NCBI GenBank assembly: GCA_902799705.1
Contig: CADCBP010000023.1
Coordinates: forward strand, 1 to 46,582
Length of the DNA: 46,582 bases
Direction: 5' to 3'
Source of the DNA: an uncultured Bacteroidales bacterium
Lineage (GTDB): Bacteria; Bacteroidota; Bacteroidia; Bacteroidales; Paludibacteraceae
Shown: piece by piece, positions 12,684 to 46,381 of the stretch
Numbering within the stretch: the first letter of the stretch is position 1
How the letters are laid out: each line of letters starts with the position of its first letter
Made by a program: the position numbers and the translations under genes
The notes under the pieces: model-generated
Database searches by the model: none
Told to the model about the DNA's origin: nothing
Seen by the model: the letters and a program-made list of their open reading frames with translations, nothing else

Positions 12684-12695
12684 TACCAAAAGAAT

Positions 12696-24803: not shown

Positions 24804-24844
24804 GAGTAGAAAGATATTTTTGTGATTAAAATGTTCTAAAAGTC

Positions 24845-24899
24845 GAGTTGCCTCCGAGTTGCCTCCGAGTTTACTCCGAGTTGCCTCCGACTTGCCTCT
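24845..24899 (+). repeat. Five tandem copies of an 11-bp unit
   Basis: GAGTTGCCTCC occurs exactly at 24845, 24856 and 24878, with degenerate copies at 24867 (GAGTTTACTCC) and 24889 (GACTTGCCTCT). The array lies between the stop of the rRNA methyltransferase gene and the TrpB2 promoter, both leftward. On the transcribed strand each unit carries GGAGG. Function unknown. Confidence 0.9.
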
Positions 24900-33241: not shown

Positions 33242-34363
33242 ATGACAGATTTCAATTCACAAATCACAAATGCAAAACCAAGGGTTTTGCTGGGTATGTC
33301 CGGTGGCATTGACTCTACCGTCAGTGCCATGCTCCTTCTTGAGCAGGGCTGTGATGTAGTGGGGGTCACCTTCCGCACGTTCGACAGTATCAAAGAGTCA
33401 TGCCTCGCTAAAGAGAAAGGCTGTTGCTCCATCGATTCCATCATGGAGGCAAAGCATAATGCGGAGCGGATGGGATTTGAACATCATATAGTGGACTTTC
33501 GTGACACTTTCCGTCGTTGTGTCATACAGAATTTCATCGACGAGTACATGGCGGGCAGGACACCCAATCCCTGTGTGCTGTGTAATAGTCATATCAAATG
33601 GGGTGAACTGATGCGCGTAGCCGATGAGTTTCATTGTGATTATATCGCTACCGGCCATTACGCCCGCATAGCCGAGAGGAACGGACACATGTTCCTGCGC
33701 ACGGCTGCCGATACGCATAAAGATCAGACCTATTTTCTCTGGATGCTGACGGAGGAACAACTGCGAAGAACAATTTTCCCATTGGGTAACCTCACCAAAG
33801 ATCAGGTGCGGGATATAGCCCGGCAGCATGGCTACGAGAAGTTGGCTGTCAAGCGAGAGAGTCAGGAGATTTGTTTCATTCCTAATGATGATTACCGTGC
33901 CTTCCTGCGCGCGAACGTACCCGATTATAAGGAACGCGTGCGCGCGGGCGAGTATGTCGATAAGGACGGTAAGGTCTTGGGACGTCACGAAGGGTACGTC
34001 AATTATACCATCGGTCAACGCAAGGGACTTGGTATTGCGCTTGGGCATCCGGCATATATCACCTCGATTGATGCTGCAAGCAATCGCATCACCCTTGGTA
34101 CCAATGACGATATGTATGCAACAGAACTGTGCTTTAATCCGTTATCGTCATGGCGCGAAGAGGTACTGACGTCTTCGCCGGTCTATGCGAAAATCCGTTA
34201 TCGTACCAAAGCGATACAACTAAAAACCCCTCCTTTTAGGGAGGGGAATGGGGTAGGCCGCCTTCTTTTCTGCGAGCCTGTCTGGGGTGTCACTCCTGGC
34301 CAGTCGGTCGTTCTCTATCAGGACGACCTCGTGGTCGGAGGGGGTATAATAAGCAATCGCTGA
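33242..34363 (+). CDS. mnmA: tRNA 2-thiouridine(34) synthase MnmA with a translated palindromic insertion
   Basis: This is a 373-residue enzyme. The PP-loop is LLGMSGGIDSTVSAMLL (about 16-32). The catalytic cysteines are in TPNPCVLCNSHIKWG (about 110-124) and SQEICFIPNDDYR (about 205-217), so thiolation of U34 is expected. The N-terminus carries extra residues TDFNSQITNAKP encoded by a short repeat. Near residues 322-338 a palindrome (34227-34246) encodes KTPPFREGNGVG in the C-terminal beta-barrel before LLFCEPVWGVTPGQSVVLY. The insertion keeps the frame. The ATG follows the msbA stop with no gap, and the stop abuts the convergent rubrerythrin stop. Confidence 0.93.
   Translation: MTDFNSQITNAKPRVLLGMSGGIDSTVSAMLLLEQGCDVVGVTFRTFDSIKESCLAKEKGCCSIDSIMEAKHNAERMGFEHHIVDFRDTFRRCVIQNFIDEYMAGRTPNPCVLCNSHIKWGELMRVADEFHCDYIATGHYARIAERNGHMFLRTAADTHKDQTYFLWMLTEEQLRRTIFPLGNLTKDQVRDIARQHGYEKLAVKRESQEICFIPNDDYRAFLRANVPDYKERVRAGEYVDKDGKVLGRHEGYVNYTIGQRKGLGIALGHPAYITSIDAASNRITLGTNDDMYATELCFNPLSSWREEVLTSSPVYAKIRYRTKAIQLKTPPFREGNGVGRLLFCEPVWGVTPGQSVVLYQDDLVVGGGIISNR
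34227..34246 (+). repeat. Palindromic repeat inside mnmA
   Basis: CCCCTCC (34227-34233) pairs with GGAGGGG (34240-34246) around TTTTAG. Followed by AATGGGGTAGG, it resembles the dispersed intergenic palindromes often seen in Bacteroidota. Here it sits in frame inside a coding region. Only one copy is in the window. Confidence 0.75.
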
Positions 34364-34912
34364 TTACTTTCCGAAATAGCGTTTGTACAATCCTTCGAAA
34401 CCTTTGCCGTGGCGAGCTTCGTCGCGTGCCATCTCATGTACGGTGTCATGAATCGGGTCGAGGTTCAACTCTTTCGCACGCTTAGCGATATTCAACTTGT
34501 CTTCGCATGCGCCGGACTCCGCTAACATGCGTTTCTCGAGGTTGGTCTTGGTATCCCATACAATCTCTCCGAGCAGTTCAGCGAAACGGGAAGCATGGTC
34601 AGCCTCTTCATAAGCGTAGCGGCGGAAAGCTTCAGCTACCTCAGGATAACCTTCGCGGTCAGCCTGACGAGCCATCGCCAGATATTGACCTACTTCGGTA
34701 CATTCACCGATGAAGTGCGCACGCAGGCCTTCTGCGATGATCGGGTCCTTCTCGTCTTTGGCTACTCCCAAAATGTGCTCGCATGCGAAAGAGAGTTTGT
34801 CGTCGGATGCTACTTTCCATTCAACGATTTGCTTACATTGCGGACAACGCTCAGGTGCCTCTGTGCCCTCGTGAACATAACCACAGATCGGGCAGATAAA
34901 TTTCTTTACCAT
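34364..34912 (-). CDS. rbr: Rubrerythrin with N-terminal rubredoxin domain
   Basis: This is a 182-residue protein. The rubredoxin iron site comes first ([12 protein letters not shown]...PERCPQCKQ, about residues 5-27), and the ferritin-like di-iron domain follows (about 40-182) with [36 protein letters not shown] and [18 protein letters not shown]. This is the order of reverse rubrerythrins, which reduce hydrogen peroxide in anaerobes. The organism is therefore likely an anaerobe (inference). The 3' end abuts mnmA with zero spacing, so no separate terminator exists between the convergent genes. Confidence 0.93.
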
Positions 34913-34949
34913 AAGATAAATATTTAAAAGGTTAATAAAAAGGGTTATT

Positions 34950-34979
34950 ATAAATTACAAATTTCAAATTACAAATCAC
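34950..34979 (-). repeat. Short AT-rich junction repeat after the CotH gene
   Basis: ATTACAAATTTCAAATTACAAATC, a degenerate repeat of about 8 nt units, overlaps the last codons and stop of the CotH-family gene and lies just upstream of rubrerythrin. It belongs with the other junction repeats in the window. Confidence 0.6.
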
Positions 34980-36732
34980 CAATAAGCGTCCCCGACGCTG
35001 TATAAGTTTTTCCGTTACGAATGATAACGAGTTGTCCGTCTTGAATACGCTTGATGCTCGTGTCGGAAAGGGGGCTTGCCGCCTGTTCTACATCGTAGGT
35101 GGCGGGACGTGTGCCCTCTCCCCACTGTTGATAGAGCCATTCTGTTCTCCAATTGAATTTGTTGACGAACTCGTTATGCTTGGCGGTCATGTTACTGTTG
35201 TCGCAATAATTGAGCGTACCGCCCCACTTGGCGGCATCGTTTTTCGCGCCTTGCTTAATCAGTGTGGCGAGTTTGTCCATCGCCGTGAGAAAATCGCTTT
35301 GCTGGTCATGTCGGAACATATACCAGATCTCCCGCAGTCTGGCTTGGAACTGTGGCCATGTAGCCAGTTGGCCGATCCAGTATTGGGGGAAGGTAGGGGA
35401 GTCGTATATCCAGGTGTTCCAGCCGCGGTTGTATGCGTTGCCGAAGTCCCACACAGGACCGAAATACCATTTCTCGGACATGCCGTTGCGGTCGCGCTCT
35501 TTATAGAGATAGCAACTGCCGTGATAACTCTCGCAATCTTCCATCAGTTCCTGCACAAGGTAGAATTTGACAGCCTCGTCCAGATCCATCATCTCCCATA
35601 AGGGGTAATCGGTGTTGCCCCAGATAGCCTCATTCAGACTATGGAGCTGGCTTTCGATATATGTACGTTGCGACGCGGAGAGCAGTTCGGGACTCTTCAT
35701 GGTAAACCATACTTCCTGTGCGTTCTGCTCGAAGAGGGTCACGTTGCCTTCCTCTTCATAGTTGTCTATCTCCACTAACCAACCACCGCTGACGGAGTCG
35801 GTCGCATAATCCTCCTGCTCGGTGACGTTCACGCGATTGGAGCCTACGCGCACTTGCTCGGTGAGGAAATACAAACCGTAATATTCGCCGTTCATCACCA
35901 GTTCTACCGGTACGGCCTTTGGCGTCCATTTCAGCCCGAGGGCTTCGCTCAGTTGGTATCCTGCGTAGTTCTTGAGGAATCCTAAGCAGTCATCCGCGTG
36001 AGCCATCAAGCACCAATGTTTATTGCTCGGCATGCCTAAGACAGCCTGCTTCTTGTCAAACTTGATGCGGTAGGGTTTCTTGTCAAAACCGGTCCACGTC
36101 CAGTTGCCGCGTCCTTTGAATTGTCCGGCAATAGGAGCTTCCGCCGAACCTAAGGCTTTATAATTTGTGCTGAGCGGGTCTATATAGAGACTGCCGGTGA
36201 CGTATTCTTCTTTGCTGGTGATGGCTACGTTACCGGTGGTGTTCAGATATACGACGGGTAGCGTGCCGGAGATAGAGGCGGTGCCGGGGGTGGTCTCCTG
36301 TTGCGATTCCCAATAACCCAATGACTGCCACGCACCTTGCGCCCAGTTATCGCCCGTCTGGGGTACGAAAATGTCTCCGGCATTCATCTGCGCCTCGGAG
36401 GTCGCGGTGCGGTTGTAATTCAAGGTGTGGCTCACGTACTCCTTGAAATCGCTGAACCGCTGGTCGTACGTACCGGCTTGGATATCTCCGCCCACGAACG
36501 TAAAGCGATAGATGTCATTGACGGCCAGAGCGATGGAGACCGCCCATTTCTGCCCGTCAAAACTCATATCCAACACATGAGTCTCGGAGACATCGTCTCT
36601 GCCGTACACCATCTTGACGGTGGAATATCCGGTCTTAGAGTTGTCAAAATAGAGCGATCCCTGCGGAATCGTCATCGCCTGCATCCCTACGCTCAGCAGG
36701 CAAACCCAAAGGAATACTAAATACTTTTTCAT
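34969..36732 (-). CDS. Secreted CotH kinase family protein with short C-terminal sorting-like tail
   Basis: This is a 587-residue protein. The signal peptide is MKKYLVFLWVCLLSVGMQA. Residues about 20-130 form a beta-rich domain (SLYFDNSKTGYSTVKMVY). The CotH domain (about 195-545) has FKGRGNWTWTGFDKKPYRIK, VPVELVMNGEYYGLYFLTEQ, VEIDNYEEEGNVTLFEQNA and YFGPVWDFGNAYNRGWN. CotH proteins are protein kinases in spore coats; in Bacteroidota most are secreted and uncharacterised. The C-terminal IKRIQDGQLVIIRNGKTYTA is shared with the protein at 41117-42532 and may be a reduced T9SS sorting tail. The ATG at 36732 lies after the promoter and gives a normal signal peptide. Confidence 0.87.
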   Translation of the reverse strand: MKKYLVFLWVCLLSVGMQAMTIPQGSLYFDNSKTGYSTVKMVYGRDDVSETHVLDMSFDGQKWAVSIALAVNDIYRFTFVGGDIQAGTYDQRFSDFKEYVSHTLNYNRTATSEAQMNAGDIFVPQTGDNWAQGAWQSLGYWESQQETTPGTASISGTLPVVYLNTTGNVAITSKEEYVTGSLYIDPLSTNYKALGSAEAPIAGQFKGRGNWTWTGFDKKPYRIKFDKKQAVLGMPSNKHWCLMAHADDCLGFLKNYAGYQLSEALGLKWTPKAVPVELVMNGEYYGLYFLTEQVRVGSNRVNVTEQEDYATDSVSGGWLVEIDNYEEEGNVTLFEQNAQEVWFTMKSPELLSASQRTYIESQLHSLNEAIWGNTDYPLWEMMDLDEAVKFYLVQELMEDCESYHGSCYLYKERDRNGMSEKWYFGPVWDFGNAYNRGWNTWIYDSPTFPQYWIGQLATWPQFQARLREIWYMFRHDQQSDFLTAMDKLATLIKQGAKNDAAKWGGTLNYCDNSNMTAKHNEFVNKFNWRTEWLYQQWGEGTRPATYDVEQAASPLSDTSIKRIQDGQLVIIRNGKTYTASGTLIGDL

Positions 36733-36757
36733 ACTAACTTCTCCTTCATATCCGGTG

Positions 36758-36788
36758 CAAAGATAATATAAAAAAATGATATACACAA
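36758..36788 (-). promoter_or_regulatory. Promoter of the CotH-family gene
   Basis: On the minus strand TTG (36788-36786), 20 nt, TATCTTTG (36765-36758), about 25 nt before the ATG at 36732. Confidence 0.75.
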
Positions 36789-36888
36789 GGGCGTGCGCGT
36801 TTTTCTTGATAATTTGTGTGTAATTACTTGCGGAAATGTGTATTTTCTGACGCATTTTATGAAAAAAACAAAAATAATTCATGAAAAA

Positions 36889-36920
36889 TTTGTGTATTTC
36901 AAAAAAAAGCAGTACCTTTG
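36889..36920 (+). promoter_or_regulatory. Promoter of the rpmB-rpmG-DUF4295 operon
   Basis: TTTG (36889-36892), 20 nt, TACCTTTG (36913-36920), with the A8-GCAG sequence before the -7 box that is also seen at the two tRNA promoters and at 44499-44518. Confidence 0.85.
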
Positions 36921-36987
36921 CGCGATTTTTCGTGTAATTATGCGAAAAGTCCCCGAATTTGAACGAAAATATAAAATATATACTACA

Positions 36988-37221
36988 ATGTCAAAGATTT
37001 GTCAAATTACAGGCAAGAAAGCCATGGTCGGCTGCAATGTCTCACACTCGAAGCGCCATACAAAGCGCAGTTTCGATGTGAACCTCTTCCGCCGCAAGTT
37101 CTACTGGGTAGAACAAGATGTATGGATCGAGCTGAACGTGAGTGCAGCAGGTCTGAGAACTATTAACAAGATCGGTCTCGACAACGCGCTGAAACAAGCT
37201 GCGGAGAAGGGCTATCTCTAA
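36988..37221 (+). CDS. rpmB: 50S ribosomal protein L28
   Basis: This is a 77-residue protein beginning [20 protein letters not shown], with [19 protein letters not shown] and a terminal [12 protein letters not shown]. It binds 23S rRNA in the large subunit. The ATG at 36988 matches the family start; the frame extends upstream only by chance. First gene of a three-gene operon. Confidence 0.96.
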
Positions 37222-37239
37222 AACGAAAGGAGCTAAACA

Positions 37240-37428
37240 ATGGCAAAGAAAACAAAAGAAGCACGCGTTCAGGTTATCCTCGAGTGCACGGAACAAAAAG
37301 CCAGCGGTGTTCCCGGAATGTCTCGTTACATCACCACCAAGAACCGCAAGAACACTCCGGATCGTTTGGAACTCATGAAGTACAATCCCTACTTGAAGAA
37401 ATACACGCTTCATAAGGAGATTAAGTAA
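37240..37428 (+). CDS. rpmG: 50S ribosomal protein L33
   Basis: This 62-residue protein has [40 protein letters not shown] and [15 protein letters not shown], the full L33 pattern. The zinc-binding cysteine pairs are absent, so it is the C-minus form. It lies 18 bp after rpmB with AAAGGAG before the ATG. Confidence 0.95.
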
Positions 37429-37456
37429 TTAACCCTAATTAGAAAGGCTTAGAACT

Positions 37457-37555
37457 ATGGCAAAGAAAGCGGTCGCAACACTGCAAACCGGTAACTCCGG
37501 ACGCGCGCACTCAGAGATCGTTCTGAACGAAAAGGTGAACGAGTTCTTTAAGTAA
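37457..37555 (+). CDS. Very short DUF4295-type ribosome-operon protein
   Basis: This is a 32-residue protein starting MAKKAVATLQTGNSGRAHSE and ending IVLNEKVNEFFK, 28 bp after rpmG. Position and both ends match DUF4295, which always follows L28-L33 in Bacteroidota and is about 50 residues. Compared with my memory of the family, the middle lysine-rich part (KVIK...TGAY) is missing here. The frame is intact, so this is an internal shortening, not a frameshift. The function of the family is unknown; it probably binds the ribosome. Confidence 0.75.
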   Translation: MAKKAVATLQTGNSGRAHSEIVLNEKVNEFFK

Positions 37556-37564
37556 CAAACCTAA

Positions 37565-37605
37565 CAATTAGCGCACTACATCTTTCGTGGTGCGCTAATT
37601 GTTTT
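37565..37605 (+). terminator. Strong terminator of the ribosomal-protein operon
   Basis: A perfect 12-bp stem, CAATTAGCGCAC (37565-37576) with GTGCGCTAATTG (37590-37601), has a 13-nt loop and is followed by TTTT. Confidence 0.9.
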
Positions 37606-37607
37606 CG

Positions 37608-37635
37608 CTAAACACTAAACACTAAACACTAATAC
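37608..37635 (+). repeat. 7-bp tandem repeat before the lipid kinase gene
   Basis: CTAAACA is repeated three times and then degenerates (CTAATAC). It lies between the terminator and the ATG at 37645. It carries TAA stop codons and is one of the short-period junction repeats of the window. Confidence 0.8.
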
Positions 37636-37644
37636 CTGTCCGCC

Positions 37645-38568
37645 ATGCTGGGCATCATCATCAATCCGAAATCGGGAAAGAATTACTTCCGCGCACAACG
37701 TATCTACTTGTGGCACTTGTTGCGTAAACGGCATCTGCCTTTTGCCTACCGTGTTACCAAATATGCGGGGCATGCAATCGAGTTGGCGCGCGAATTGGTA
37801 GAGAAAGGATATGACGAAATTCTCATCCTCGGCGGAGACGGCACGCTCTCCGAAGCCGTTAACGGCATCATGAAATCCGTTCTTACGCCGGAACAGAAGG
37901 CGAAAGTACAAGTTGGACTCATGCCCCGCGGCACGGGAAATGATTGGGCTCGGTATTGGAACCTGACCAAGAATCACAAGGAATCGCTTCGCCGCTTCTT
38001 TGAGGGCGAAGGACATCCTATCGACATTGGTTGTCTCACATATTGGCGTAATAACATCGAGCACCATCGCTATTTCATCAACTCCGTTGGATTCGGAGTG
38101 GATCCGCTGACCTGCAAGAAAGCCGAGACGCTCAAGTACTATATTGGTTCCCACCACGTCAATTATGTGTTCGGACTGATTGGAGCCATCATTCAGCATA
38201 AGGCGCAGCACATGGTCCTGACAGTGGACGGCAAAGAAACCGTCAATGACCTGCTCTTCACCATGAATGTCGGAAACGGGCCGTTCTCCGGCGGAGGTAT
38301 CCGGCAAAACCCCGAAGCTGATCCTACAGACGGTATCTTCCACGCGATGTTTGTCAAGAAACCGACGTTCGGACAAGTTATCAAGGCGCTGCCGAATTTG
38401 TTCAACGGACGACTTACCGAACTGCCCTTCGTCTATCCTGTCGTTGGACGGGAGATAGAGATATCCTATCGCAAGCATATTCTCTTTGAGGCGGATGGTA
38501 TTTTGGAGAACATCATTGGTCCGTGCAAAGTGACGTGCCTGCATAACGCATTGCAGTTCCGGTGCTAA
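37645..38568 (+). CDS. Diacylglycerol/lipid kinase family protein
   Basis: This 307-residue enzyme of the DAGK catalytic family (YegS-like) has IIINPKSGKNYFRAQ at the N-terminus, the nucleotide-binding ILGGDGTLSEAVNGI (about 62-76), LMPRGTGNDWARYW (about 92-105), and the C-terminal VGNGPFSGGGIRQNPEADPTDG block. It phosphorylates a lipid alcohol such as diacylglycerol or a sphingoid base; the substrate cannot be decided here. A short repeat leads into its start and another follows its stop. Confidence 0.9.
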   Translation: MLGIIINPKSGKNYFRAQRIYLWHLLRKRHLPFAYRVTKYAGHAIELARELVEKGYDEILILGGDGTLSEAVNGIMKSVLTPEQKAKVQVGLMPRGTGNDWARYWNLTKNHKESLRRFFEGEGHPIDIGCLTYWRNNIEHHRYFINSVGFGVDPLTCKKAETLKYYIGSHHVNYVFGLIGAIIQHKAQHMVLTVDGKETVNDLLFTMNVGNGPFSGGGIRQNPEADPTDGIFHAMFVKKPTFGQVIKALPNLFNGRLTELPFVYPVVGREIEISYRKHILFEADGILENIIGPCKVTCLHNALQFRC

Positions 38569-38596
38569 CTTTCCCTTTCACCTTTCACCTTTCACT
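38569..38596 (+). repeat. Pyrimidine-rich junction repeat
   Basis: CTTTCACC-type units of about 8 nt are repeated three to four times between the lipid kinase stop and the ATG at 38598. Degenerate. The strand is purine-poor, so there is no ribosome-binding site of the usual kind. Confidence 0.7.
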
Positions 38597-38597
38597 T

Positions 38598-39971
38598 ATG
38601 CCAAAGCAGCAAGGCAGTAACCGCATCTATACCCGCGAGACGGACGCGAACGGTCGTACGTTCATTCGTGTGCAGGGTACGAACCGCGATGAGAATCGCG
38701 CGTTCATCTACATGGCGCGCCATTTTCATGACTTGGGACTACCGGTGCCCGAACTCTATTCGGTGAGCGAAGACGGGATGAGTTATACGCAGGAGGATCT
38801 GGGAGATACGATTCTTTTCGACCATCTGGATGACTATACCTTATTGGAACGCACGCTGCGCGCGCTCGCGCATATACAGGTTGAGGGCGCGGTGGATTTC
38901 GACTGGTCTGTGTGCTTCCCTGTGCCCGCGTTCGACGAACGTACCATCCGGTGGGATCTCAACTATTTCAAGTATTGTTTCCTCAAAGCTACGAAGATCG
39001 AGTTCTCCGAACCCCGACTCGAGGACGATTTCGACCGCCTCGTCCAGCGTCTGATTTCTGACAGCGGCAGCGGTCTTTCAACTTTCCTCTACCGCGATTT
39101 CCAGAGCCGCAATGTGATGATCAAAGACGGGCAACCGTATTTCATTGATTTCCAGGGCGGTCGCCGCGGACCCACCCAGTATGACGTGGCATCCTTCCTC
39201 TGGCAGGCAAAGGCGAACTTCCCGCCCGAACTCCGCAATAAACTGATAGATGTGTATCTGGATGAGTTGGAGAAAGTCATCAATTCATCATTCCATCAAT
39301 CCATCAATAAAGCCGCTTGGCGTGCGGTCTTGCCTCATTTCGTGCTCTTCCGGACACTTCAGGTCCTCGGCGCTTACGGATTCAGAGGCTATTTTGAACG
39401 CAAACCCCATTTCCTGGAGTCTGTTCCGCTCGCCCTCAAGAACCTGAAAGAGATTTTTGAGCAAAATCAGGAATTGCGGCAGGACTATCCGGCACTCTTT
39501 TTGCTCTCCAAACAGTTCCCGATTCCGACGGTCAACCGACGGTCAACCGACGGTCAAAGCCAGCGTGCAAGCCTGGTTGTTTCCGTCTATTCGTTCTCCT
39601 TCAAGCGCGGAATTCCGGAGGATGAGTCCGGTAACGGTGGAGGTTATGTCTTCGACTGCCGCAGTACCCACAACCCCGGCAAATACGAGGAATACAAGTC
39701 CCTTACCGGCCTGGATCAGCCGGTGATTGATTTCCTGGAGAAAGACGGCGAGATCTTGACGTTCCTGGAGAGCGTATATCGCCTGGTCGATCAGCATGTG
39801 GAGCGGTTTATCGAACGGGGTTTCAGCCATCTGCAGGTCGCTTTCGGTTGTACCGGAGGACAGCACCGTTCCGTCTATTGCGCCGAGCATCTGGCCAGGC
39901 ACCTCAAAGAGAAATATAACGTCACCATCCACCTCATCCACCGCGAACGCGGAATATCCCGTAAATGGTAA
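38598..39971 (+). CDS. Sugar kinase-like phosphotransferase fused to RapZ C-terminal domain (AmgK-RapZ-like)
   Basis: This is a 457-residue fusion. Residues 1-308 form an aminoglycoside-phosphotransferase fold like the cell-wall sugar kinase AmgK: N-lobe FIRVQGTNRDENRAFIYMAR, hinge YTQEDLGDTILFDHLDD, catalytic loop FLYRDFQSRNVMIKDGQ (Asp near 166) and metal site FIDFQGGRRGP (about 183). Residues about 322-457 are the RapZ C-terminal domain (VSVYSFSFKRGIP, YVFDCRSTHNPGKYEEYKSL, FGCTGGQHRSVYCAEHLARH), which in E. coli binds glucosamine-6-phosphate. The linker is encoded by three exact 11-bp repeats. RapZ's N-terminal P-loop domain is absent. The next gene is MurU-like, which supports an amino-sugar salvage role (inference). 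The ATG at 38598 is chosen because the upstream part lies in a repeat. Confidence 0.87.
   Translation: MPKQQGSNRIYTRETDANGRTFIRVQGTNRDENRAFIYMARHFHDLGLPVPELYSVSEDGMSYTQEDLGDTILFDHLDDYTLLERTLRALAHIQVEGAVDFDWSVCFPVPAFDERTIRWDLNYFKYCFLKATKIEFSEPRLEDDFDRLVQRLISDSGSGLSTFLYRDFQSRNVMIKDGQPYFIDFQGGRRGPTQYDVASFLWQAKANFPPELRNKLIDVYLDELEKVINSSFHQSINKAAWRAVLPHFVLFRTLQVLGAYGFRGYFERKPHFLESVPLALKNLKEIFEQNQELRQDYPALFLLSKQFPIPTVNRRSTDGQSQRASLVVSVYSFSFKRGIPEDESGNGGGYVFDCRSTHNPGKYEEYKSLTGLDQPVIDFLEKDGEILTFLESVYRLVDQHVERFIERGFSHLQVAFGCTGGQHRSVYCAEHLARHLKEKYNVTIHLIHRERGISRKW
39278..39310 (+). repeat. Translated short repeat in the kinase domain
   Basis: Units of the type (TT)CCATCAAT repeat about four times and encode INSSFHQSINKA in the C-lobe of the kinase. 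The composition differs from its surroundings and resembles the junction repeats. Confidence 0.7.
39525..39557 (+). repeat. Three exact 11-bp repeats between kinase and RapZ-C domains
   Basis: CCGACGGTCAA occurs at 39525-39535, 39536-39546 and 39547-39557 without mismatch. The 33 nt keep the frame and encode about 11 linker residues (PTVNRRSTDGQ). Gain or loss of one unit would shift the frame and remove the RapZ-C domain. Confidence 0.95.
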
Positions 39972-39996
39972 ATGGTAAATGATCAAATGGTACATG
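39961..39996 (+). repeat. Junction repeat containing stop and start codons
   Basis: AAATGGT units (GTAAATGGTAAATGGTAAATGATC, then AAATGGTAC) include the stop of the kinase-RapZ gene (TAA 39969-39971) directly followed by the ATG of the nucleotidyltransferase (39972). Confidence 0.75.
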
Positions 39997-40781
39997 GTTT
40001 GATTTTTGCTGCGGGTTTAGGCACGCGTCTCAGACCTCTCACGGACACGATGCCGAAGGCGCTGGTTCCTCTGGCCGGCAAACCTCTGCTGCAGTGGCAG
40101 GTGGAGAAACTGCGTGATGCCGGTATCACAGACATCATCGTCAACGTGCATCATTTCCCGGATATGATTATCGATGCCGTCCGCGCCAATGACGGCTGGG
40201 GATGTAATATCACCATCTCCGACGAACGCGATGGTCTTTTGGATACAGGTGGCGGCCTCAAAAAAATCAAATCAGAAATCATAAATCATAAATCAGAAAT
40301 CATAAATGCTCCTATCCTCGCCTGCAACGTGGACATCCTCTCCAATATCGATATCCACGCGCTTATTGCCGAATATGAACGAACGGGCGTGAGTCAACTG
40401 GTTGTCTCGGAACGTCAAACGCAGCGGTATCTGCTTTTTGATGAAGAGGGACTATTACGCGGATGGACGAATATCGCTACCGGCGAAGTGCGTCCTACCA
40501 ATCTCCAATCTTCAATCTCCAATTTCCAAAAACTCGCCTTCTCCGGCATGCAGATTCTCAGTCCCGGAGTGCTTTCGTGCTTGTCGCAGATGCCCCAAGA
40601 CAAATTTTCACTCATCGACTTCTATATGTCCGTCTGTGAAAAACAAATCATAAATCACAAATCTGAAATCATCAATCTGAAAGCTTACATTCCGGAAGCT
40701 TTCAAGATGATGGATGTCGGAAAAATAGACCAGATTGATGAAGCGGAATCCTTTGCAGAGAATCTTTTCTGTAAAAAATGA
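39972..40781 (+). CDS. Sugar-1-phosphate nucleotidyltransferase, MurU-like
   Basis: This is a 269-residue protein. The nucleotide-binding signature is LIFAAGLGTRLRPLTDTMPK (about 9-28), followed by PLLQWQVEKLRDAGITDIIV, DERDGLLDTGGGL and the metal aspartate in ILACNVDILSNIDIH. Its closest functional match is MurU (N-acetylmuramate-1-phosphate uridylyltransferase), and an AmgK-like kinase gene ends where this one begins. Together they would turn recovered MurNAc or GlcNAc into UDP-sugar (inference from the Pseudomonas AmgK-MurU pathway). Three AT-rich repeats are translated inside it; two encode the same peptide IINHKSEIIN. The start is ATG 39972 (MVNDQMVHG); ATG 39987 is an alternative that removes the repeat-derived residues. 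Confidence 0.85.
   Translation: MVNDQMVHGLIFAAGLGTRLRPLTDTMPKALVPLAGKPLLQWQVEKLRDAGITDIIVNVHHFPDMIIDAVRANDGWGCNITISDERDGLLDTGGGLKKIKSEIINHKSEIINAPILACNVDILSNIDIHALIAEYERTGVSQLVVSERQTQRYLLFDEEGLLRGWTNIATGEVRPTNLQSSISNFQKLAFSGMQILSPGVLSCLSQMPQDKFSLIDFYMSVCEKQIINHKSEIINLKAYIPEAFKMMDVGKIDQIDEAESFAENLFCKK
40265..40306 (+). repeat. Translated 21-bp tandem repeat in the MurU-like gene (copy 1)
   Basis: Two near-perfect 21-nt units encode KSEIINH and KSEIINA, inserted after DTGGGLKKI and before the conserved PILACNVDIL. Reads as AAATCAGAAATCATAAATCAT-type sequence. Confidence 0.85.
40499..40530 (+). repeat. Translated short repeat in the MurU-like gene (copy 2)
   Basis: CAATCTCCAATCTTCAATCTCC-type units of about 7-8 nt encode NLQSSISNFQK before LAFSGMQIL. 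Confidence 0.8.
40641..40682 (+). repeat. Translated short repeat in the MurU-like gene (copy 3)
   Basis: AAATCATAAATCACAAATCTG-type sequence encodes QIINHKSEIINLK before AYIPEAFKMMDVG. It shares the peptide IINHKSEIIN with the first copy, 375 nt upstream. Confidence 0.85.
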
Positions 40782-40810
40782 CCCCTTAAGTGCATTTTTT
40801 TGCGATTTTA

Positions 40811-40842
40811 TTTGCTCATGTCAAAAAAAAGCAGTACCTTTG
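40811..40842 (+). promoter_or_regulatory. Promoter of tRNA-Lys
   Basis: TTTG (40811-40814), 20 nt with A8-GCAG at its end, TACCTTTG (40835-40842). The transcript has a long leader of about 130 nt before the tRNA; a 40-codon frame (40871-40993) in it runs into the tRNA and is probably chance. Confidence 0.85.
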
Positions 40843-40983
40843 CACCCGCTTTTCAAAAAACACGATCCGCATGGTTCCTCAGTACGTAAACCAGCGAAGC
40901 GTTTGCGGACTGAAAAGCGTAGCACAATACGTAGCACTATACAAGCGCAGAGCGCGCAGTCGTGCGAGTATTAGTGCAAGCGA

Positions 40984-41056
40984 GTCTCCCTAGCTCAGTT
41001 GGTAGAGCAACTGACTCTTAATCAGTGGGTCGAGGGTTCGAGCCCCTCGGGGGACA
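40984..41056 (+). tRNA. tRNA-Lys(CTT)
   Basis: Acceptor stem GTCTCCC/GGGGGAC with one G-T pair, discriminator A. The D arm is GCTCAGTTGGTAGAGC, the anticodon stem ACTGA/TCAGT with loop CTCTTAA (anticodon CTT), and the T arm CGAGG-GTTCGAGC-CCCTCG-like. No CCA encoded. Confidence 0.95.
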
Positions 41057-41063
41057 CTAAAGG

Positions 41064-41100
41064 CCGCTGACCCTAACAAACGGGTTGGCGGTTTTGTTTT
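41064..41100 (+). terminator. Terminator after tRNA-Lys
   Basis: CCGCTGACCC (41064-41073) pairs with GGGTTGGCGG (41082-41091), two wobble pairs, followed by TTTTGTTTT. It lies 8 bp after the tRNA. Confidence 0.8.
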
Positions 41101-41116
41101 ATAAAAGACCAAATCC

Positions 41117-42532
41117 ATGAGAAAAATTTTCCTTTTGTTTCTGGCTGCAGTGCTGAGTTTGAGCGTGACGGCAGAGATGACTCCTCTTTTCTACGAGGGG
41201 TTTACGCGTTGTATTGATGAAGAGGATGAGAACTACGGCTATACCGGAGGCAACGACAACCGGTGGGGTGGAGATGTTGCGACGGCTGTCGTGGTCTATC
41301 AGGACGCTCCGGAATGGACGCTCGACTACTGTAACGGCGGGTTGCAGTGCCTGAAGGTGGGTACCTCCTCCAAGCAAGGAAAGGCGACCACGCCGTTCAT
41401 ACCATGCGAGGGGGAGGCGGTGCTCTCTTTCCGCGCCGCGCCATGGGAGGGAGACTCAATCATGACCGTCTCTATATCCGGAGGCAACACCCAGGACCCC
41501 ACGGCTTTTAACCTCAAAAAACACCAATGGACGGATATCACCATCCGCATCTCTGATATCACGTCGGGCATCAAAGTGACCTTCAGTTCCTATTACAAGC
41601 ATCGTTTCTTTCTCGATGAGGTCTATGTGCGTCCGCAGGACCCCACAGTGGGAGTGATACGTGTGCCGGACGGTACAACGGTGGACTTCGGACTGGTCGG
41701 ATGCAATTACAAAGCGGACTCGCGAATCGTGCGGGTGGAAGGAGTAAACTTGAAAGGCAATATATCTGTTAAACTGGAAGGCGGCAATGCTTCGCAAGGC
41801 GTGTTTGACCTGAGTACCGCTTCTCTGCCCGCCGCAGGCGGCAGTCTCACCGTCACTACGCGTCCGGGAGCGGCATCGGGGAGTATGTTCGGTACGACTC
41901 TCATGTTGCAAGGCAAGGATGCGAAGACGAATGAGACGGTGCTGAAGAAGGTGTCTCTGATGATGGAGGTGTCATCCCTAAACCTCGAGGGAGCGGGTAC
42001 CAAACCCGATCCTTATACCTGCGGGGACGTCTTGTTGCTTGCCGCGAACGAGGGTACGGTATGGAACGACACCTATTATTGGGTGACGGGCTATGTCCTT
42101 GGCGGCGTGAAACGCTATCAGGAGCAGTACAACGGTATCAGTTACACGGATAACCTCTCGCTCGTTCTGGCGGCTGATCCTGCCGAGACAAACGACAGCA
42201 AGTATGTCCTGGTACAGATTAGCGGCAATGCGCGCGCGGCACTCAATGTGGTTGATAATCCCGAACTCATCGGACAGCAGATCAAGGTCAACGGGCTGCT
42301 GCTCAATGACAATCTTAACCCCAACTATCTCGGCAAACCCGGCGTGCGCGATGTGCGCACCGATGCACAATATGTGCGTCCGGCTAAGCCCGGACTGGAA
42401 GAAATAGAGGAAGTCTTCGGAGAAGGGCATGCCGGCACACGGAAAATCCTCTATGACGGACAGTTGTATATCCTTCGCGGAGAAACATTATATACTATCA
42501 CCGGTCAACTCATCCATAATGGTAGTAATTGA
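41117..42532 (+). CDS. Secreted beta-sandwich protein with DUF6359-like domain
   Basis: This is a 471-residue protein. Signal peptide MRKIFLLFLAAVLSLSVTA. Residues about 22-175 look like a choice-of-anchor/lectin-like jelly roll (LFYEGFTRCIDEEDENYGYT, GGLQCLKVGTSS, HRFFLDEVYVRP). Residues about 180-290 form an Ig-like module (VDFGLVGCNYKADSRIVRVE). Residues about 295-430 resemble the OB-fold DUF6359 domain (PYTCGDVLLL, YYWVTGYVLGGV, GQQIKVNGLLLNDN). The end, TRKILYDGQLYILRGETLYT, matches the tail of the CotH-family protein and may be a sorting signal for the T9SS. Function unknown. The stop overlaps the next gene by 14 nt. Confidence 0.8.
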   Translation: MRKIFLLFLAAVLSLSVTAEMTPLFYEGFTRCIDEEDENYGYTGGNDNRWGGDVATAVVVYQDAPEWTLDYCNGGLQCLKVGTSSKQGKATTPFIPCEGEAVLSFRAAPWEGDSIMTVSISGGNTQDPTAFNLKKHQWTDITIRISDITSGIKVTFSSYYKHRFFLDEVYVRPQDPTVGVIRVPDGTTVDFGLVGCNYKADSRIVRVEGVNLKGNISVKLEGGNASQGVFDLSTASLPAAGGSLTVTTRPGAASGSMFGTTLMLQGKDAKTNETVLKKVSLMMEVSSLNLEGAGTKPDPYTCGDVLLLAANEGTVWNDTYYWVTGYVLGGVKRYQEQYNGISYTDNLSLVLAADPAETNDSKYVLVQISGNARAALNVVDNPELIGQQIKVNGLLLNDNLNPNYLGKPGVRDVRTDAQYVRPAKPGLEEIEEVFGEGHAGTRKILYDGQLYILRGETLYTITGQLIHNGSN

Positions 42533-43202
42533 ACATATTAACAAGTCTTTCGGGCGTCAACAGGTGTTGCGCGATGTGACGCTGTCTATTCCGGAAGGAC
42601 AGGTCCTCGGACTGTTGGGACCTAACGGCGCCGGCAAGTCCACGCTGATGAAGATACTCATCGGTCTCTGGCGGGCTGACAGCGGAACGGTCTCCGTACC
42701 CGAACGTATCGGATATCTGCCCGAGAGCAATCCTCTTTATGAAGAGATGTACGTCGCCGAGTACCTGGAGTTCATGGCGGGTCTCACCCTAAACAGCGAA
42801 GCTATCAACGGCACAGCCAATAAACGCGAAGCTATAAACTCCCTCATCGAACGCGTAGGCCTGACCCCGGAGCGCCACAAGCATATCCGCGAACTCAGCA
42901 AGGGCTATCGCCAGCGCGTAGGCCTCGCGCAGGCTTTGCTCGGAAACCCGCAACTGCTCATCCTCGACGAACCCACTACCGGACTCGACCCTAACCAACT
43001 CGTCGAGATACGAACCCTGATCAAGGAACTCGGCAGGGAGCGAACGGTAATCCTCTCCACGCATATCATGCAGGAGGTGAGTGCCATGTGTGACAGAGTG
43101 GTCATCCTCGACCACGGCACCATCAAGGCCGACCTACCTATCAACCAGATACCCGATTTAGAAACCCTCTTCCACGAGGCTACTAAATGGCAAAATGGCT
43201 AA
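42519..43202 (+). CDS. ABC transporter ATP-binding protein (ABC-2 type, no permease nearby)
   Basis: This 227-residue ATPase has Walker A LLGPNGAGKSTLMKIL (about 33-48), signature RELSKGYRQRVGLAQALLG, Walker B LLILDEPTTGLDPNQL and H-loop ILSTHIMQEVSAMC. It resembles the GldA/ABC-2 export ATPases but is shorter, and no membrane partner is encoded next to it. Residues about 92-107 (NSEAINGTANKREAIN) come from an imperfect repeat (AGCGAAGCTATCAAC and AACGCGAAGCTATAAAC, 42792-42839), another case of repeat-derived coding sequence. The ATG at 42519 lies within the end of the upstream gene. Confidence 0.88.
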   Translation: MVVIEHINKSFGRQQVLRDVTLSIPEGQVLGLLGPNGAGKSTLMKILIGLWRADSGTVSVPERIGYLPESNPLYEEMYVAEYLEFMAGLTLNSEAINGTANKREAINSLIERVGLTPERHKHIRELSKGYRQRVGLAQALLGNPQLLILDEPTTGLDPNQLVEIRTLIKELGRERTVILSTHIMQEVSAMCDRVVILDHGTIKADLPINQIPDLETLFHEATKWQNG

Positions 43203-43203
43203 A

Positions 43204-43256
43204 TAAATGACCAAATCGTAAATGACCAAATCGTAAATGTCCAAATGGTAAATGAT
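43204..43256 (+). repeat. 15-bp junction repeat before ruvB
   Basis: AAATGACCAAATCGT occurs twice exactly, followed by AAATGTCCAAATGGT and AAATGATT. It contains the ruvB start codon (43245) and several other ATGs. A related array lies at 46343-46381. Confidence 0.9.
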
Positions 43257-44264
43257 TTTGATATCCGACAACAAATGTCCGAGAAGGAGCAGGATAATGC
43301 GCTCCGCCCTCTATGCTTCGCCGACTTTGCCGGACAGAGCAAGGTGACCTCCAACCTCAAGATCTTTGTGGAGGCTGCTAAACTGCGTGGCGAGAGTTTG
43401 GACCATGTACTGCTTTTCGGACCTCCGGGACTGGGAAAGACGACCCTCAGTAATATCATCGCGAACGAATTGGGTGTGGGCTTTAAGGTCACTTCCGGTC
43501 CGGTGCTCGACAAACCCGGTGATTTGGCTGGGTTGCTCACGTCGCTCGAACCCAATGACGTGCTCTTCATCGATGAGATTCATCGTCTGAGTCCTATCGT
43601 CGAGGAGTATCTCTATTCGGCGATGGAGGACTACCGTATCGACATCATGATCGACAAAGGCCCCTCGGCGCGCACCATCCAGATAGACCTGAATCACTTC
43701 ACCCTTATCGGTGCTACCACGCGCAGCGGTTTGTTAACGAGTCCGCTCCGCGCGCGTTTCGGTATCAACTGCCATCTCGAGTACTATGATGCAGATATCC
43801 TCGCCGGTATTGTGAAGCGCAGCGCGCGGCTCTTGGGAGTGGAGATCAACGAGAAGGCGGCAGGCGAGATAGCACGCCGTTCACGTGGTACGCCGCGTAT
43901 CGCCAATGCACTTCTGCGGCGCGTGCGTGACTTCGCGCAGGTCAAGGGCGACGGCACGATAGACCTTGAGATAGCGCAGTATGCCCTGGAGGCGCTCAAT
44001 ATCGATACCTTCGGCCTGGATCAGATCGACAACAAACTGCTCACTACCATCATCGACAAGTTCCGCGGAGGACCTGTCGGACTTAACACGATCGCTACCG
44101 CTATGGGCGAAGATGCCGGTACCATCGAGGATGTCTATGAACCCTATCTTATCAAGGAAGGTTTCATCAAACGCACTCCGCGCGGACGAGAAGCGACCGA
44201 ACTCGCCTACAAGCACCTCGGCAAGACACCTCTCAGCCCCGACGGCCAGCAGAGCATTTTCTGA
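43245..44264 (+). CDS. ruvB: Holliday junction branch-migration helicase RuvB
   Basis: This 339-residue AAA+ motor has [19 protein letters not shown] at the N-terminus, Walker [21 protein letters not shown] (about 66-85), Walker [21 protein letters not shown] (about 105-124), sensor [10 protein letters not shown] and the winged helix [20 protein letters not shown]. It drives DNA through RuvA at Holliday junctions. The start [10 protein letters not shown] is repeat-derived in its first residues; an internal ATG (MSEKEQ) at 43275 is an alternative. A terminator follows. Confidence 0.96.
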
Positions 44265-44326
44265 ACAGCATAAAACCTGCAGATAATAAGCATAAAATAA
44301 GCATAAAACCTGTATAAACTTTACGG

Positions 44327-44352
44327 AGCCGAATTTTTTCGGCTTCTTTTTT
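44327..44352 (+). terminator. Terminator of ruvB
   Basis: AGCCGAA (44327-44333) pairs with TTCGGCT (44338-44344) around TTTT, followed by TCTTTTTTT. Just upstream the phrase GCATAAAACCTG occurs twice with GCATAAAATAA between. Confidence 0.85.
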
Positions 44353-44498
44353 TGTACGCGGGTGTTTTTTACGTGCGTTAATGGTTGCGGATTATAATTG
44401 ATTGTTATATTTTTGTGGAAAAAATGACATTTTTGTAAAAAACATGCAGATTGTAAGAAAATGATTATTTTTTTCGAAAAAATGATTACTGATTATTG

Positions 44499-44518
44499 AA
44501 AAAAAAGCAGTACCTTTG
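44499..44518 (+). promoter_or_regulatory. Promoter of the TPR-AraC regulator gene
   Basis: A8-GCAG followed by TACCTTTGCG (-7 box 44511-44518). The same extended box as at the tRNA and L28 promoters, but no good TTTG lies 20 nt upstream. The ATG is 20 nt downstream. Confidence 0.6.
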
Positions 44519-44537
44519 CGCCAAATTTCTAACATCT

Positions 44538-46259
44538 ATGGGTAAAACACGAATCATATTTCTTCTTTTGGCGGCGTGGATGGTCCTTCCGGTGGTGGCA
44601 GAGGAAGGTGTAGATGCGCAGATGAAGCACTATGGTGAGAACTATGCTGAGACGTCGGATGCGCAAAAACGTATCCGGTTGGCAAATGATTTCTTTGCTT
44701 ATTTGAATAAGATAGACTATTTGGACGATTCTATCGTCTTTCCGGGTGATGCGCATATCGATTCTGTGGATGTGAATGTCTATTACTATATCGGAGAGTG
44801 GTACTATGGCGACGGGCAATACAGCCAGGCAACAGCGTATTGCTCCCGTGCTGCGAAGGCATGTTCGGACAAGGTGGACGACAACTCGAAGGGGGATGTC
44901 TATAGTCTGCTTGGCGCGGCGTATTTCCGGTTAGGGGAGTTTGACAAGGCGGCGGATGCGTTGCATGTATGCTATGAGATAGACAGCAAGAGCGGTGACT
45001 ACGACCAGCTGAGTTCGACGCTGAATAATATAGCCGGTATCTTTGTCGCGGCGGGTAAACCGCAAGAGGCGGAGAAATATATCCAGGAGGCAATCGCCGC
45101 CAACAGTCTGACTCAGAACATGGCTCGCAGGGCGGTGTTGTTCGGCACGGCGTCGGAGATGTACCGCGGCATGGGTGATGAGGAGCAGTCGCTGTCCTAT
45201 GCACGTCGGGCATTGGAGATAGAGCGTCAGCGTGGCGACAGTGCCAAGATCGGCGTGCGGCTATCCCAAGTGGCGAGTGCTGAATTAGGGCTCTCGCATA
45301 TAGACGAGGCGCAGCGGTCGCTCGAAGAAGCCATGCCGCTTCTGGAGGCTGCCGGCAACAAGCACTCGTTGGGTATATGCATGAACCAGATGGGCGACAT
45401 CCTCGCTTCCAAGGGAAAAGACTTAGAGGCGGCGGAATACTACCGTGAAGCAGCCGCATTGTTCTTCTCGCAAGGCGATATGTATAATGAATCGCACGCG
45501 CGTGAAGGGATGTACAAGACGCTCAAACATAGTGCTCCGGGCGAGGCGATGTTGCATCTGGAGCGTGCCAAACAACTGCGTGACTCCGTCTATCAGCAGC
45601 AGACAAGTGAGACTATCAGCCGGTATAACGCCTTGTACTATAACGACTTGTTGCAGAAAGAGGCGGAACGCGCCGAGAAGAAACGGCATGTCATTTTGAT
45701 GATAGTTCTGTGCTTGTCGGGATTAGTGGTGTTGTCCTTGATCGGCGCATGTATCACGTATCTCAAAAGCAGACGCAAGGAGCAGAGCTACCAGCAGGAT
45801 ATCCATTCTCTTCAGACCCGTTACAACGAGATTAACCGCCTCTACAGAAATATCGCTATTGAGAGTGTCCCGAATCAGAATGTGCTCACGGATGACGACC
45901 GTGTTTTCCTGGAAGAACTGACGCGTACAGTCGATGAAGAGATGGAGAAGGGCAACACGGATATCAAGTCTGTGTCAAGCCGCATGCATACCACGGAGCA
46001 GACCCTCCGGCGCAGGCTGACCAAGACCTTAGGCATCACCCCGCAGGTTTATTTCACGCAGGTGAGGATGAAGAAGGCGAAATATCTGCTTCTCAACTAC
46101 CGTGATATCACGATAGCCGAGGTGGCGGAGAAGTGCGGCTATACATTGATGACCAATTTCACCCGTGCTTTCACGCGCTTTTATGGTATCAAGCCGAGTG
46201 AAGTGAGGTTACAAAAACCGGATACTGAATTACCCCCCCCCATGCGAAGAGCGGCGTAG
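44538..46259 (+). CDS. Membrane-bound TPR sensor with cytoplasmic AraC-type DNA-binding domain
   Basis: This is a 573-residue protein. Signal peptide MGKTRIIFLLLAAWMVLPVVAEE; a TPR array at about residues 70-365 (YSLLGAAYFRLGEFDKAADA, LSSTLNNIAGIFVAAGKPQE, AEYYREAAALFFSQGDMYNE); a transmembrane helix at about 385-410 (HVILMIVLCLSGLVVLSLIG); a coiled coil; and an AraC/XylS helix-turn-helix at about 470-570 (DIKSVSSRMHTTEQTLRRRL, DITIAEVAEKCGYTLMTNFT, RAFTRFYGIKPSEV). It would sense something in the periplasm and act directly on DNA from the membrane. This architecture is known in Bacteroidota but targets are not recognisable here. The ATG at 44538 is chosen because the upstream part lies in the promoter. 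Confidence 0.9.
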   Translation: MGKTRIIFLLLAAWMVLPVVAEEGVDAQMKHYGENYAETSDAQKRIRLANDFFAYLNKIDYLDDSIVFPGDAHIDSVDVNVYYYIGEWYYGDGQYSQATAYCSRAAKACSDKVDDNSKGDVYSLLGAAYFRLGEFDKAADALHVCYEIDSKSGDYDQLSSTLNNIAGIFVAAGKPQEAEKYIQEAIAANSLTQNMARRAVLFGTASEMYRGMGDEEQSLSYARRALEIERQRGDSAKIGVRLSQVASAELGLSHIDEAQRSLEEAMPLLEAAGNKHSLGICMNQMGDILASKGKDLEAAEYYREAAALFFSQGDMYNESHAREGMYKTLKHSAPGEAMLHLERAKQLRDSVYQQQTSETISRYNALYYNDLLQKEAERAEKKRHVILMIVLCLSGLVVLSLIGACITYLKSRRKEQSYQQDIHSLQTRYNEINRLYRNIAIESVPNQNVLTDDDRVFLEELTRTVDEEMEKGNTDIKSVSSRMHTTEQTLRRRLTKTLGITPQVYFTQVRMKKAKYLLLNYRDITIAEVAEKCGYTLMTNFTRAFTRFYGIKPSEVRLQKPDTELPPPMRRAA

Positions 46260-46293
46260 CGGAAAACAACAGGCCTTCGCAGACCATATAGAC

Positions 46294-46325
46294 GGTGCGC
46301 ATGAATAATGCGCCCCGCCTTTTTG
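46294..46325 (+). terminator. Possible terminator after the AraC-type regulator
   Basis: GCGCAT (46297-46302) pairs with ATGCGC (46308-46313), with G/C flanks, followed by CGCCTTTTT. Weak to moderate. Confidence 0.45.
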
Positions 46326-46342
46326 CGTTTTACGCACTTATA

Positions 46343-46381
46343 ACCAAATGGTACATCGTAAATGACCAAATGGTAAATGAA
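46343..46381 (+). repeat. Short repeat related to the pre-ruvB array
   Basis: ACCAAATGGTACATCGTAAATGACC-type units, about 15 nt, recur here as at 43204-43256 and 39961-39996. It lies between the convergent ends of two genes. Confidence 0.8.

Follow-up and report, generated by a model that had tools for sequence, protein, structure and literature searches.

A contig of 46,582 nucleotides (CADCBP010000023.1, contig C23 of its assembly) from an uncultured Bacteroidales bacterium of the family Paludibacteraceae carries a series of short tandem repeat arrays, built mostly of seven-base words, at the junctions of its genes and in the ends and loops of the encoded proteins. The whole contig is called the window below, and the genome to which it belongs (2.325 Mb in 45 contigs, 94% complete) is called G000. 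Such arrays occur in large excess over chance, are biased towards gene ends, stand as insertions in orthologous genes, fill the same sites with different words in different species, and draw on species-biased words whose imperfect stretches recur at separate loci. We regard it as probable that they are dispersed heptameric simple repeats which arise by slippage, are copied in short patches between loci, and are tolerated at gene junctions, protein ends and loops.

The six nearest named relatives of the RuvB protein encoded in the window are 90-97% identical to it and are titled Bacteroidales or Paludibacteraceae, with cattle rumen, goat rumen and red deer named in three of the titles; RuvB was named from the titles of these genomes together with strong full-length matches, not by family search. 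More than 60 genomes of the genus were available for comparison at orthologous sites, with one genome per species throughout. Among them, G021 belongs to the same genus as G000, while G061, G063 and G064 (the genomes behind loci L001, L003 and L004) are close to the window by RuvB, and these four are syntenic with the window in this region. Arrays were called with Tandem Repeats Finder (TRF) at a minimum score of 30 and by a period scan. The genome sample comprised 446,582 bp (the window and 20 stretches of 20 kb), and the word statistics drew on six genome samples of 69 to 504 kb each.

Excess, periods and placement of the arrays

In the window the period scan found six arrays of period 7 against 0.00 per dinucleotide shuffle (50 shuffles), and periods 8, 11, 14 and 15 were likewise above their shuffles. 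The genome sample held 138 short-period arrays, of which 64 had period 7, 19 period 8, 16 period 11, nine period 14, and eight each periods 15 and 16; periods 5, 10, 17, 18, 19 and 22 gave no arrays in this sample. Windows of five heptamer units numbered 87, compared with two in local shuffles. Tandem 7-nt units above chance are the mark of heptameric simple sequence repeats, and the comparison with shuffled sequence that the first-pass annotation had proposed came out clearly, the observed repeat frequency not being reached by any shuffle. The same annotation had placed the arrays chiefly in the right third of the window. They are indeed concentrated there within the window (11 of the 13 arrays of the scan lie right of position 33241, p = 4.5e-5), but this is no special feature of the region, as arrays were found throughout the sampled genome and in close genomes. 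Clumping is moderate, with 1 to 15 arrays per 20-kb tile (20 tiles, variance/mean 2.2), and period-7 density ranges from 10 to 22 arrays per 100 kb in the six genome samples. Beyond the genus the result is mixed. Arrays of period 7, 14 or 21 were found in 26 of 80 named Bacteroidales loci, so this kind of array is wider than the genus, but six other genera of the family yielded only six arrays in 151 kb of sampled stretches, one of them with period 7.

Placement was assessed on 112 arrays of periods 7, 8, 14, 15, 16 and 21. Within 50 nt of the end of an open reading frame (ORF) lay 61% of them, compared with 11% of 2,240 random placements. In approximate classes, 41 overlap an ORF end, 26 lie between ORFs and 45 lie inside ORFs, the random shares being 3.8%, 6.7% and 89.5%, respectively. 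Coding sequence is therefore avoided and gene ends are favoured, and still 40% of the 112 arrays lie in ORFs. The arrays share one style, which marks gene junctions and stays in frame at protein ends and loops, as had been proposed from the window.

The strand on which an array is C-rich or G-rich tracks local GC skew: C-rich arrays lie at negative skew in 22 cases and at positive skew in 18, and G-rich arrays in 14 and 49, respectively (p = 0.001), a bias that points to replication. The window is an exception to this rule, with one G-rich and seven C-rich arrays at slightly positive skew. An orientation set by gene strand was considered and found weak (p = 0.057), local GC skew fitting better, with exceptions. 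A grammar of constant tetramer plus variable trimer, suggested by CTGA-NNN-like arrays, was set aside as well. Its phase test was weak, with noise added by array extension (G000, p = 0.0004 with a small effect of 0.612 vs 0.589; G021, p = 0.77; the 80 named loci, p = 0.05).

Two observations concern repeats of other periods. The 11-nt unit CGAGTTGCCTC, repeated five times at 24844-24898, is matched by similar arrays elsewhere in the genome (L146, L147, L150 and L152) and forms a second dispersed word family of different period. In L155 (G000 C20:60001-80000), much longer octamer (TCTTTCAT, TTTCATCA) and 14-mer (AAATCCTAAATTTG) arrays are clustered at 8966-9080, 12654-12752 and 17484-17934, and the AAATCCTAAATTTG 14-mer is also found on contig C4 (L157).

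Array sites in orthologous genes

By Pfam, the genes at the arrays encode MnmA, a diacylglycerol-kinase-like (DGK-like) protein, a fusion protein in which an APH-type kinase is joined to the C-terminal domain of RapZ, a nucleotidyl transferase, an ABC ATPase and a TPR-AraC regulator. The nucleotidyl transferase profile matched 17 PDB sequences, the third being N-acetylmuramate 1-phosphate uridylyltransferase (MurU), and the protein is referred to here as MurU-like. Orthologues were compared in 15 close genomes at the kinase and MurU-like loci and in 30 genomes at the RuvB junction. On the alignments, the arrays are insertions or replacements relative to close genomes. Among 548 array sites queried, 87 could be placed in another genome; the array site exceeded the orthologous interval by 10 nt or more in 67 of the 127 placed comparisons, against 7 of 453 controls. 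A lack of length variation among orthologues had been named beforehand as a possible refutation, and lengths do vary at array sites.

The MurU-like protein illustrates this in frame. Relative to most of 29 other family sequences it has six additional residues at the array 40265..40307 and nine at the array 40641..40682, and about six more at its N-terminus. In the predicted structure (mean pLDDT 87.7), the two internal ten-residue blocks of lowest pLDDT, 101-110 and 221-230, coincide with two of the inserts. Loop 1, at the first of these arrays, is filled with AAATCAT in the window, AATGGCG in G021, AATGGAC in G061 and AAATCCT in G090, and has no array in G064 (G063 is unreadable there). The loop-1 arrays of G000, G090 and G138 (40256-40311, L264 and L269) have one unit order, in which first-type and second-type units differ in concert. 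When the link of loop 1 to genome-wide word choice was examined, AAATCAT and AAATCCT were both present in G000 and in G090.

In the kinase-RapZ protein, the in-frame octamer array CATCAATC (39277..39308), within the kinase domain, makes its interval 15 nt longer than in nine of 15 other genomes, 3 nt longer than in five and equal to that in one. The linker between the kinase and RapZ C-terminal domains contains three copies of the 11-nt unit CCGACGGTCAA (39525..39557); it is similar in G090 and G070, and other genomes have other repeats or a short linker. Both domains form a single ORF (38562-39971) in the window and in many congeners, but others, such as G061, G064 and G098, have a short linker, and their two parts give separate, overlapping matches. 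Across 16 genomes (the window, 12 others of the genus, and G061, G063 and G064), the kinase and MurU-like proteins also carry other small repeats in their loops and linkers, namely palindromes (CTCTCCCTTGAGGGGAGAG, TTCAGCCAAGCTTGGCTGAA), the CAGCGAAGCGGTC family, and 9- and 11-mers. These sites thus look like tolerant sinks, not functional elements. A REP-like palindromic stretch, CCCCTCCTTTTAGGGAGGGG, lies inside mnmA at 34221-34260; a similar element occurs at the ABC-RuvB junction of L004, and related ones in the kinase sites of L271-L273.

Orthologous sites are also reused. In a test stratified by context, from which queries of three overlapping loci were dropped and in which reciprocals were merged (one pair being counted twice), in-gene sites had an array at the orthologous site in 9 of 41 comparisons (one of them a repeat of another), the controls giving 3 of 392; an earlier unstratified count, with reciprocals and overlapping loci included and context unmatched, had given 45/127 vs 12/453. 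The words at paired sites agree in 4.38 of seven letters (n = 13), compared with 4.10 for random between-genome pairs. At the ABC-RuvB junction, read in 30 genomes of the genus including G000 out of 61 searched, the detector reports an array in 14, other short repeats are seen by eye in two more (L299, L306), and the other 14 have none. The words there include CCCATAA, GTTAAAC, AAATTGT, CAATCGT, ACACCTT and an 11-mer, among others. On a weakly supported RuvB tree, array presence at this junction requires 12 changes, which is no fewer than for shuffled labels (mean 10.2, range 7-14).

The strong bias to ORF ends and the reuse of sites among species speak for functional arrays, either as heptad-spaced binding sites for a protein or RNA regulator or as translational elements at start codons, a role of the kind proposed for TAACTGA in Beggiatoaceae. 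We consider this very unlikely, given that no array is detected at the RuvB junction in 16 of the 30 genomes (the two with repeats seen by eye among them), that orthologous sites do not keep the same word, strand or length, and that the 45 arrays inside ORFs, where followed, are translated as loops. An artefact of assembly or binning of a metagenome-assembled genome is scarcely credible. Most of the nearest named relatives bear titles of metagenome assemblies or of uncultured isolates, and the assembly of short repeats is difficult; yet different assemblies of different species have arrays at shared sites whose flanking genes are intact, all arrays of the window are shorter than 60 bp, and interval length is divisible by three in 75 of 77 in-gene cases, a figure that codon-based mapping favours.

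Words shared between loci and a proposed route of spread

The words are biased by species and recur at different loci. When arrays from different loci are paired, their canonical words are identical in 318 of 7,150 pairs within genomes (4.45%), compared with 250 of 29,453 pairs between genomes (0.85%), and within-genome sharing has a permutation p of 0.0005. Letter-shuffled words agree in 0.31% of pairs within and 0.17% between genomes. Favoured words are AAAGGTG, AATCTCC, AAAAATT and AAATCAT in G000, AAAGTCG, AACCCGT and AACCCAT in G021, and AATCACC in G064, the last mostly from one 20-kb stretch. In five word classes, and among the matches listed (at most four per class), arrays built of the same word have unrelated flanks; the exceptions are three G021 arrays with short matches to one another and one neighbouring pair in G064. 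An imperfect 24-mer is common to 18 array pairs in G000, 75 in G021, 9 in G061, 13 in G064 and 5 in G063, some of them neighbours. Identical one-step variants were found in 138 of 662 comparisons over all genomes, against a uniform expectation of 4.8%.

The compound 22-mer GTAAATGACCAAATSGTAAATG was matched in 15 of 37 genomes of the genus, on both strands and as often as 15 times, with no match in 24 genomes of other families or in the backward control. A phage origin of the 22-mer is unsupported, the one pattern tried having no exact match in viral_contigs. Searches with words gave 121 matches against 15 for backward controls, a contrast that is conservative, and 32 against 19 in G000, where the control was unusable; the controls are contaminated because AAATGGT and AAATCCT yield themselves when reversed. 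The vocabulary is largely species-specific and is shared among different loci as imperfect multi-unit stretches.

Each array could instead be an independent product of local polymerase slippage, with likeness arising from base composition and mutation bias and no copying between loci. Heptamers are the commonest repeats of 5-11 nt in many bacteria and have been explained by slippage (Mrazek 2007, as cited in passages of PMC4679880). The strand bias with local GC skew is expected of a replication-linked process, and variant sharing is modest in the window's own genome. Independent slippage nevertheless appears unlikely to us as the whole account, because words whose letters are shuffled, with composition unchanged, are shared much less often than the observed ones, and because the sharing of words, imperfect 24-mers and the compound 22-mer across different loci is predicted by the copying of patches and not by slippage alone. 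The excess of identical one-step variants over all genomes points the same way.

Under the reading with copying, the class would consist of small dispersed tandem repeats of 20 to 60 bp, made mostly of heptamer words and present throughout the genus. Arrays would grow by replication slippage in seven-base steps. Short patches would then be copied from locus to locus within the genome, in either orientation and without a transposase of their own, the simplest route being template switching or ectopic gene conversion during repair. Such copying would keep a small set of words in circulation and give each species a largely separate vocabulary, and loss and replacement of arrays would proceed about as fast as species diverge. 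The arrays would have no site-specific function; selection would clear them from most coding sequence and leave those at gene ends and in surface loops and linkers, where, in frame, they add residues. We infer slippage as the birth process, repair-linked copying as the mode of spread and absence of function, whereas the patterns described above are observed.

Several points weigh against this reading. Copying and slippage are both deduced from the comparison of arrays among genomes with one representative per species. Variant sharing is driven by G021 (106 of 427 comparisons in its listed classes), G000 contributing 7 of 63 in five listed word classes, and shared variants could partly reflect a biased mutation spectrum. 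Words overlap in part between species: arrays of AAATCAT/AAATCCT were present in 17 of the 61 genomes of the genus, and G090 has words in common with both G000 and G021. The position classes depend on gene models that are mechanical ORFs of at least 90 residues and are approximate for that reason. In 24 of 127 comparisons the array site falls short of the orthologous interval by 10 nt or more (as do 20 of 453 controls), either because the interval of the other genome is longer or because the array replaced sequence, and near gene ends site reuse is marginal (17/62 vs 5/45, p = 0.05). Finally, the array architecture of MurU loop 1 is common to G000, G090 and G138 with units changed in concert, a pattern that shows inheritance plus homogenisation, not birth and death, at that site, suggesting homogenisation in 21-nt steps or conversion.

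Enzymes that might make or move the arrays were also considered. Repeats made by telomerase-like enzymes or retroelements were dropped, as no RVT_1 match to reverse transcriptase was found in G000 (94% complete), compared with 3 of 14 control genomes positive. Loss of mismatch repair is unsupported, MutL being present (the only gene looked for; MutS was not searched). REP and REPIN sequences are palindromic dispersed elements moved by cognate Y1 transposases (RAYTs). We give little credence to the idea that the present arrays are moved in trans in a similar way, for example by Y1-like (HUH) proteins. In its favour, a protein of 355 residues (L343:802-1869) has a weak Y1_Tnp match (21.8 bits, cut-off 23) and is matched at five places of G000 and at three of G021; its relatives at the four further G000 places are diverged, one with an internal stop. 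Matches of any strength occur in 17 of 61 family genomes, and below E = 1e-40 only in G000, G021, G009 and G041. Among the few genomes compared, however, these proteins do not track array density: G050, with seven period-7 arrays in 69 kb, lacks a Y1 match, and in G009 the Y1 matches go with no period-7 array in 40 kb. The window arrays are direct repeats, the palindromes seen belonging to other families; the ends of arrays of five word classes vary, and neither a common end nor an inverted repeat stands out among the arrays examined, for which no systematic scan was made. The palindromic families in the same loops suit a Y1-like enzyme better, and the Y1-like protein is a candidate mover of palindromic repeats.

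The arrays of the window and known repeat systems

All twelve arrays that the first-pass annotation had listed exist, here described on the forward (+) strand; TRF called eleven of them (at 33253, 34947, 37608, 38569, 39278, 39525, 39961, 40269, 40498, 40643 and 43204), and the twelfth holds a dispersed 22-mer. Three are not heptameric, namely the 8-nt array at 39278, the 11-nt array at 39525 and the 15-nt compound (7+8) array at 43204. The annotation had also held that arrays supply gene ends, and this is borne out at several places. A weak heptamer array CAAATCA at 33246..33273 (TRF 33253-33271, score 31) encodes some of the first MnmA residues (MTDFNSQITNAKPR); local matches to other genomes, given as loci, start at query residues 4-14, in weak support of an added N-terminus. 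The array GTAAATG at 39961..39996 both closes the kinase-RapZ ORF, with its last codons and stop, and opens the MurU-like ORF, with its start and first codons. RuvB has its start codon in a compound 15-nt array (TAAATGACC AAATCG) at 43204..43256, between the ABC ATPase and RuvB genes, and this array also includes the dispersed 22-mer in one copy (43218-43239).

The remaining junction arrays vary between genomes where compared. ATTACAA / AAATTAC, detected by TRF and the period scan at 34947..34983, lies between a rubrerythrin-like gene and the next minus-strand gene and touches the 3' end of the latter. CTAAACA, in 3.6 copies at 37608..37632, is upstream of the DGK-like gene; the site has a CTGAATT-type array in G021 and none in G061 and G064 (G063 is unreadable there). 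At the junction of the DGK-like and kinase-RapZ genes, the window has CTTTCAC at 38569..38595, and other genomes have no array or one built of other words: G061 has the opposite strand of the CTTTCAC word family, a long CTGANNN array stands in G021, and both G063 and G064 lack an array. Inside the MurU-like ORF, AAATCAT/AAATCAG at 40265..40307, CCAATCT at 40498..40530 and AAATCAT at 40641..40682 occupy loops 1, 2 and 3. The last, degenerate array (46343..46381), too irregular for TRF, includes at 46358-46379 the 22-mer GTAAATGACCAAATGGTAAATG, a form of a pattern matched nine times in the genome.

The first-pass annotation had called a process that creates and tolerates such repeats unusual. 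In part it is not, as heptamer excess and placement at starts and stops have precedent in passages of PMC4692102 and PMC4679880. According to the former, heptamer repeats are over-represented and little studied in bacteria, and GGGAATC in Xanthomonas and GGGGA(C/T)T in Nostoc form dispersed arrays, often of four units, near start and stop codons, as do the arrays described here; most of the Xanthomonas repeats lie between the same genes in two species and vary in length and sequence. Those systems, as presented in the same passages, have one dominant G-rich word per organism, for which G-quadruplexes are proposed, whereas the present genomes have many words each, different words per site and translated copies in enzyme loops. 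GGG or CCC occurs in the array word in 2/67 arrays of G000, 18/76 of G021, 0/54 of G061, 1/37 of G064, 0/32 of G063 and 0/7 of G050, and the arrays as a group are not heptamers of the G-quadruplex kind, whose unit has a run of at least three G.

The heptanucleotide repeats of Calothrix PCC 7601 are known as STRR. Three heptanucleotides are mentioned for this organism in passages of PMC4692102, and by that description alone the present case is alike in having several heptamer words in one genome. TAACTGA direct repeats, in the account given in parts of PMC4679880, lie upstream of start codons in Beggiatoaceae, cyanobacteria and a few Bacteroidetes, are patchy by species, and consist of a single word with related heptamers rare and a regulatory role proposed; other heptamers are mentioned in some Bacteroidetes intergenic regions. 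The present arrays are likewise patchy and found upstream of start codons, but have many words, and TAACTGA itself occurs in none of the 273 period-7 arrays of the six genome samples. In a prokaryote satellite survey (PMC6749651, in part), transposed families are rare, with clear long-repeat examples in Leptospira interrogans and Methanocella conradii and a scattered species-specific 14-nt family in Chloroflexus aurantiacus, and heptamer-derived satellites are mostly ascribed to local duplication. The resemblance is to species-specific families dispersed in a genome, for which transposition was inferred there; word turnover at orthologous sites is a feature that sets the present arrays apart from what those parts describe. 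Rickettsia palindromic elements are also small and dispersed and insert in frame into unrelated proteins, but as described in portions of PMC10969869 they are about 150 bp, palindromic and of conserved peptide, whereas the present arrays are direct repeats of 20-60 bp with changing peptide. A survey in PMC12699852 notes, in the part concerned, high repeat density in Bacteroidota, also in genes. Among titles and abstract openings, with subscription journals and preprints mostly outside, no description of such repeats in this genus was found. Compared with these precedents, the many-word species vocabulary, the turnover of words at reused sites and the repeated use in enzyme loops look new.

A more far-reaching possibility, which we put forward tentatively and regard as doubtful, is that copying acting in trans maintains a single species-biased vocabulary across the hundreds of tiny arrays of each genome, sites being kept or refilled over speciation while their words are rewritten, in non-coding sequence and protein alike. 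If true, this would amount to concerted evolution of bacterial microsatellites and would be a standing source of new protein loops, termini, and start and stop codons. In a genus whose species fill the same junctions and loops with different words, the birth, copying, turnover and tolerance of small insertions can be counted at orthologous sites, and the arrays show a path by which enzymes may gain loops, linkers and ends from repeat DNA.

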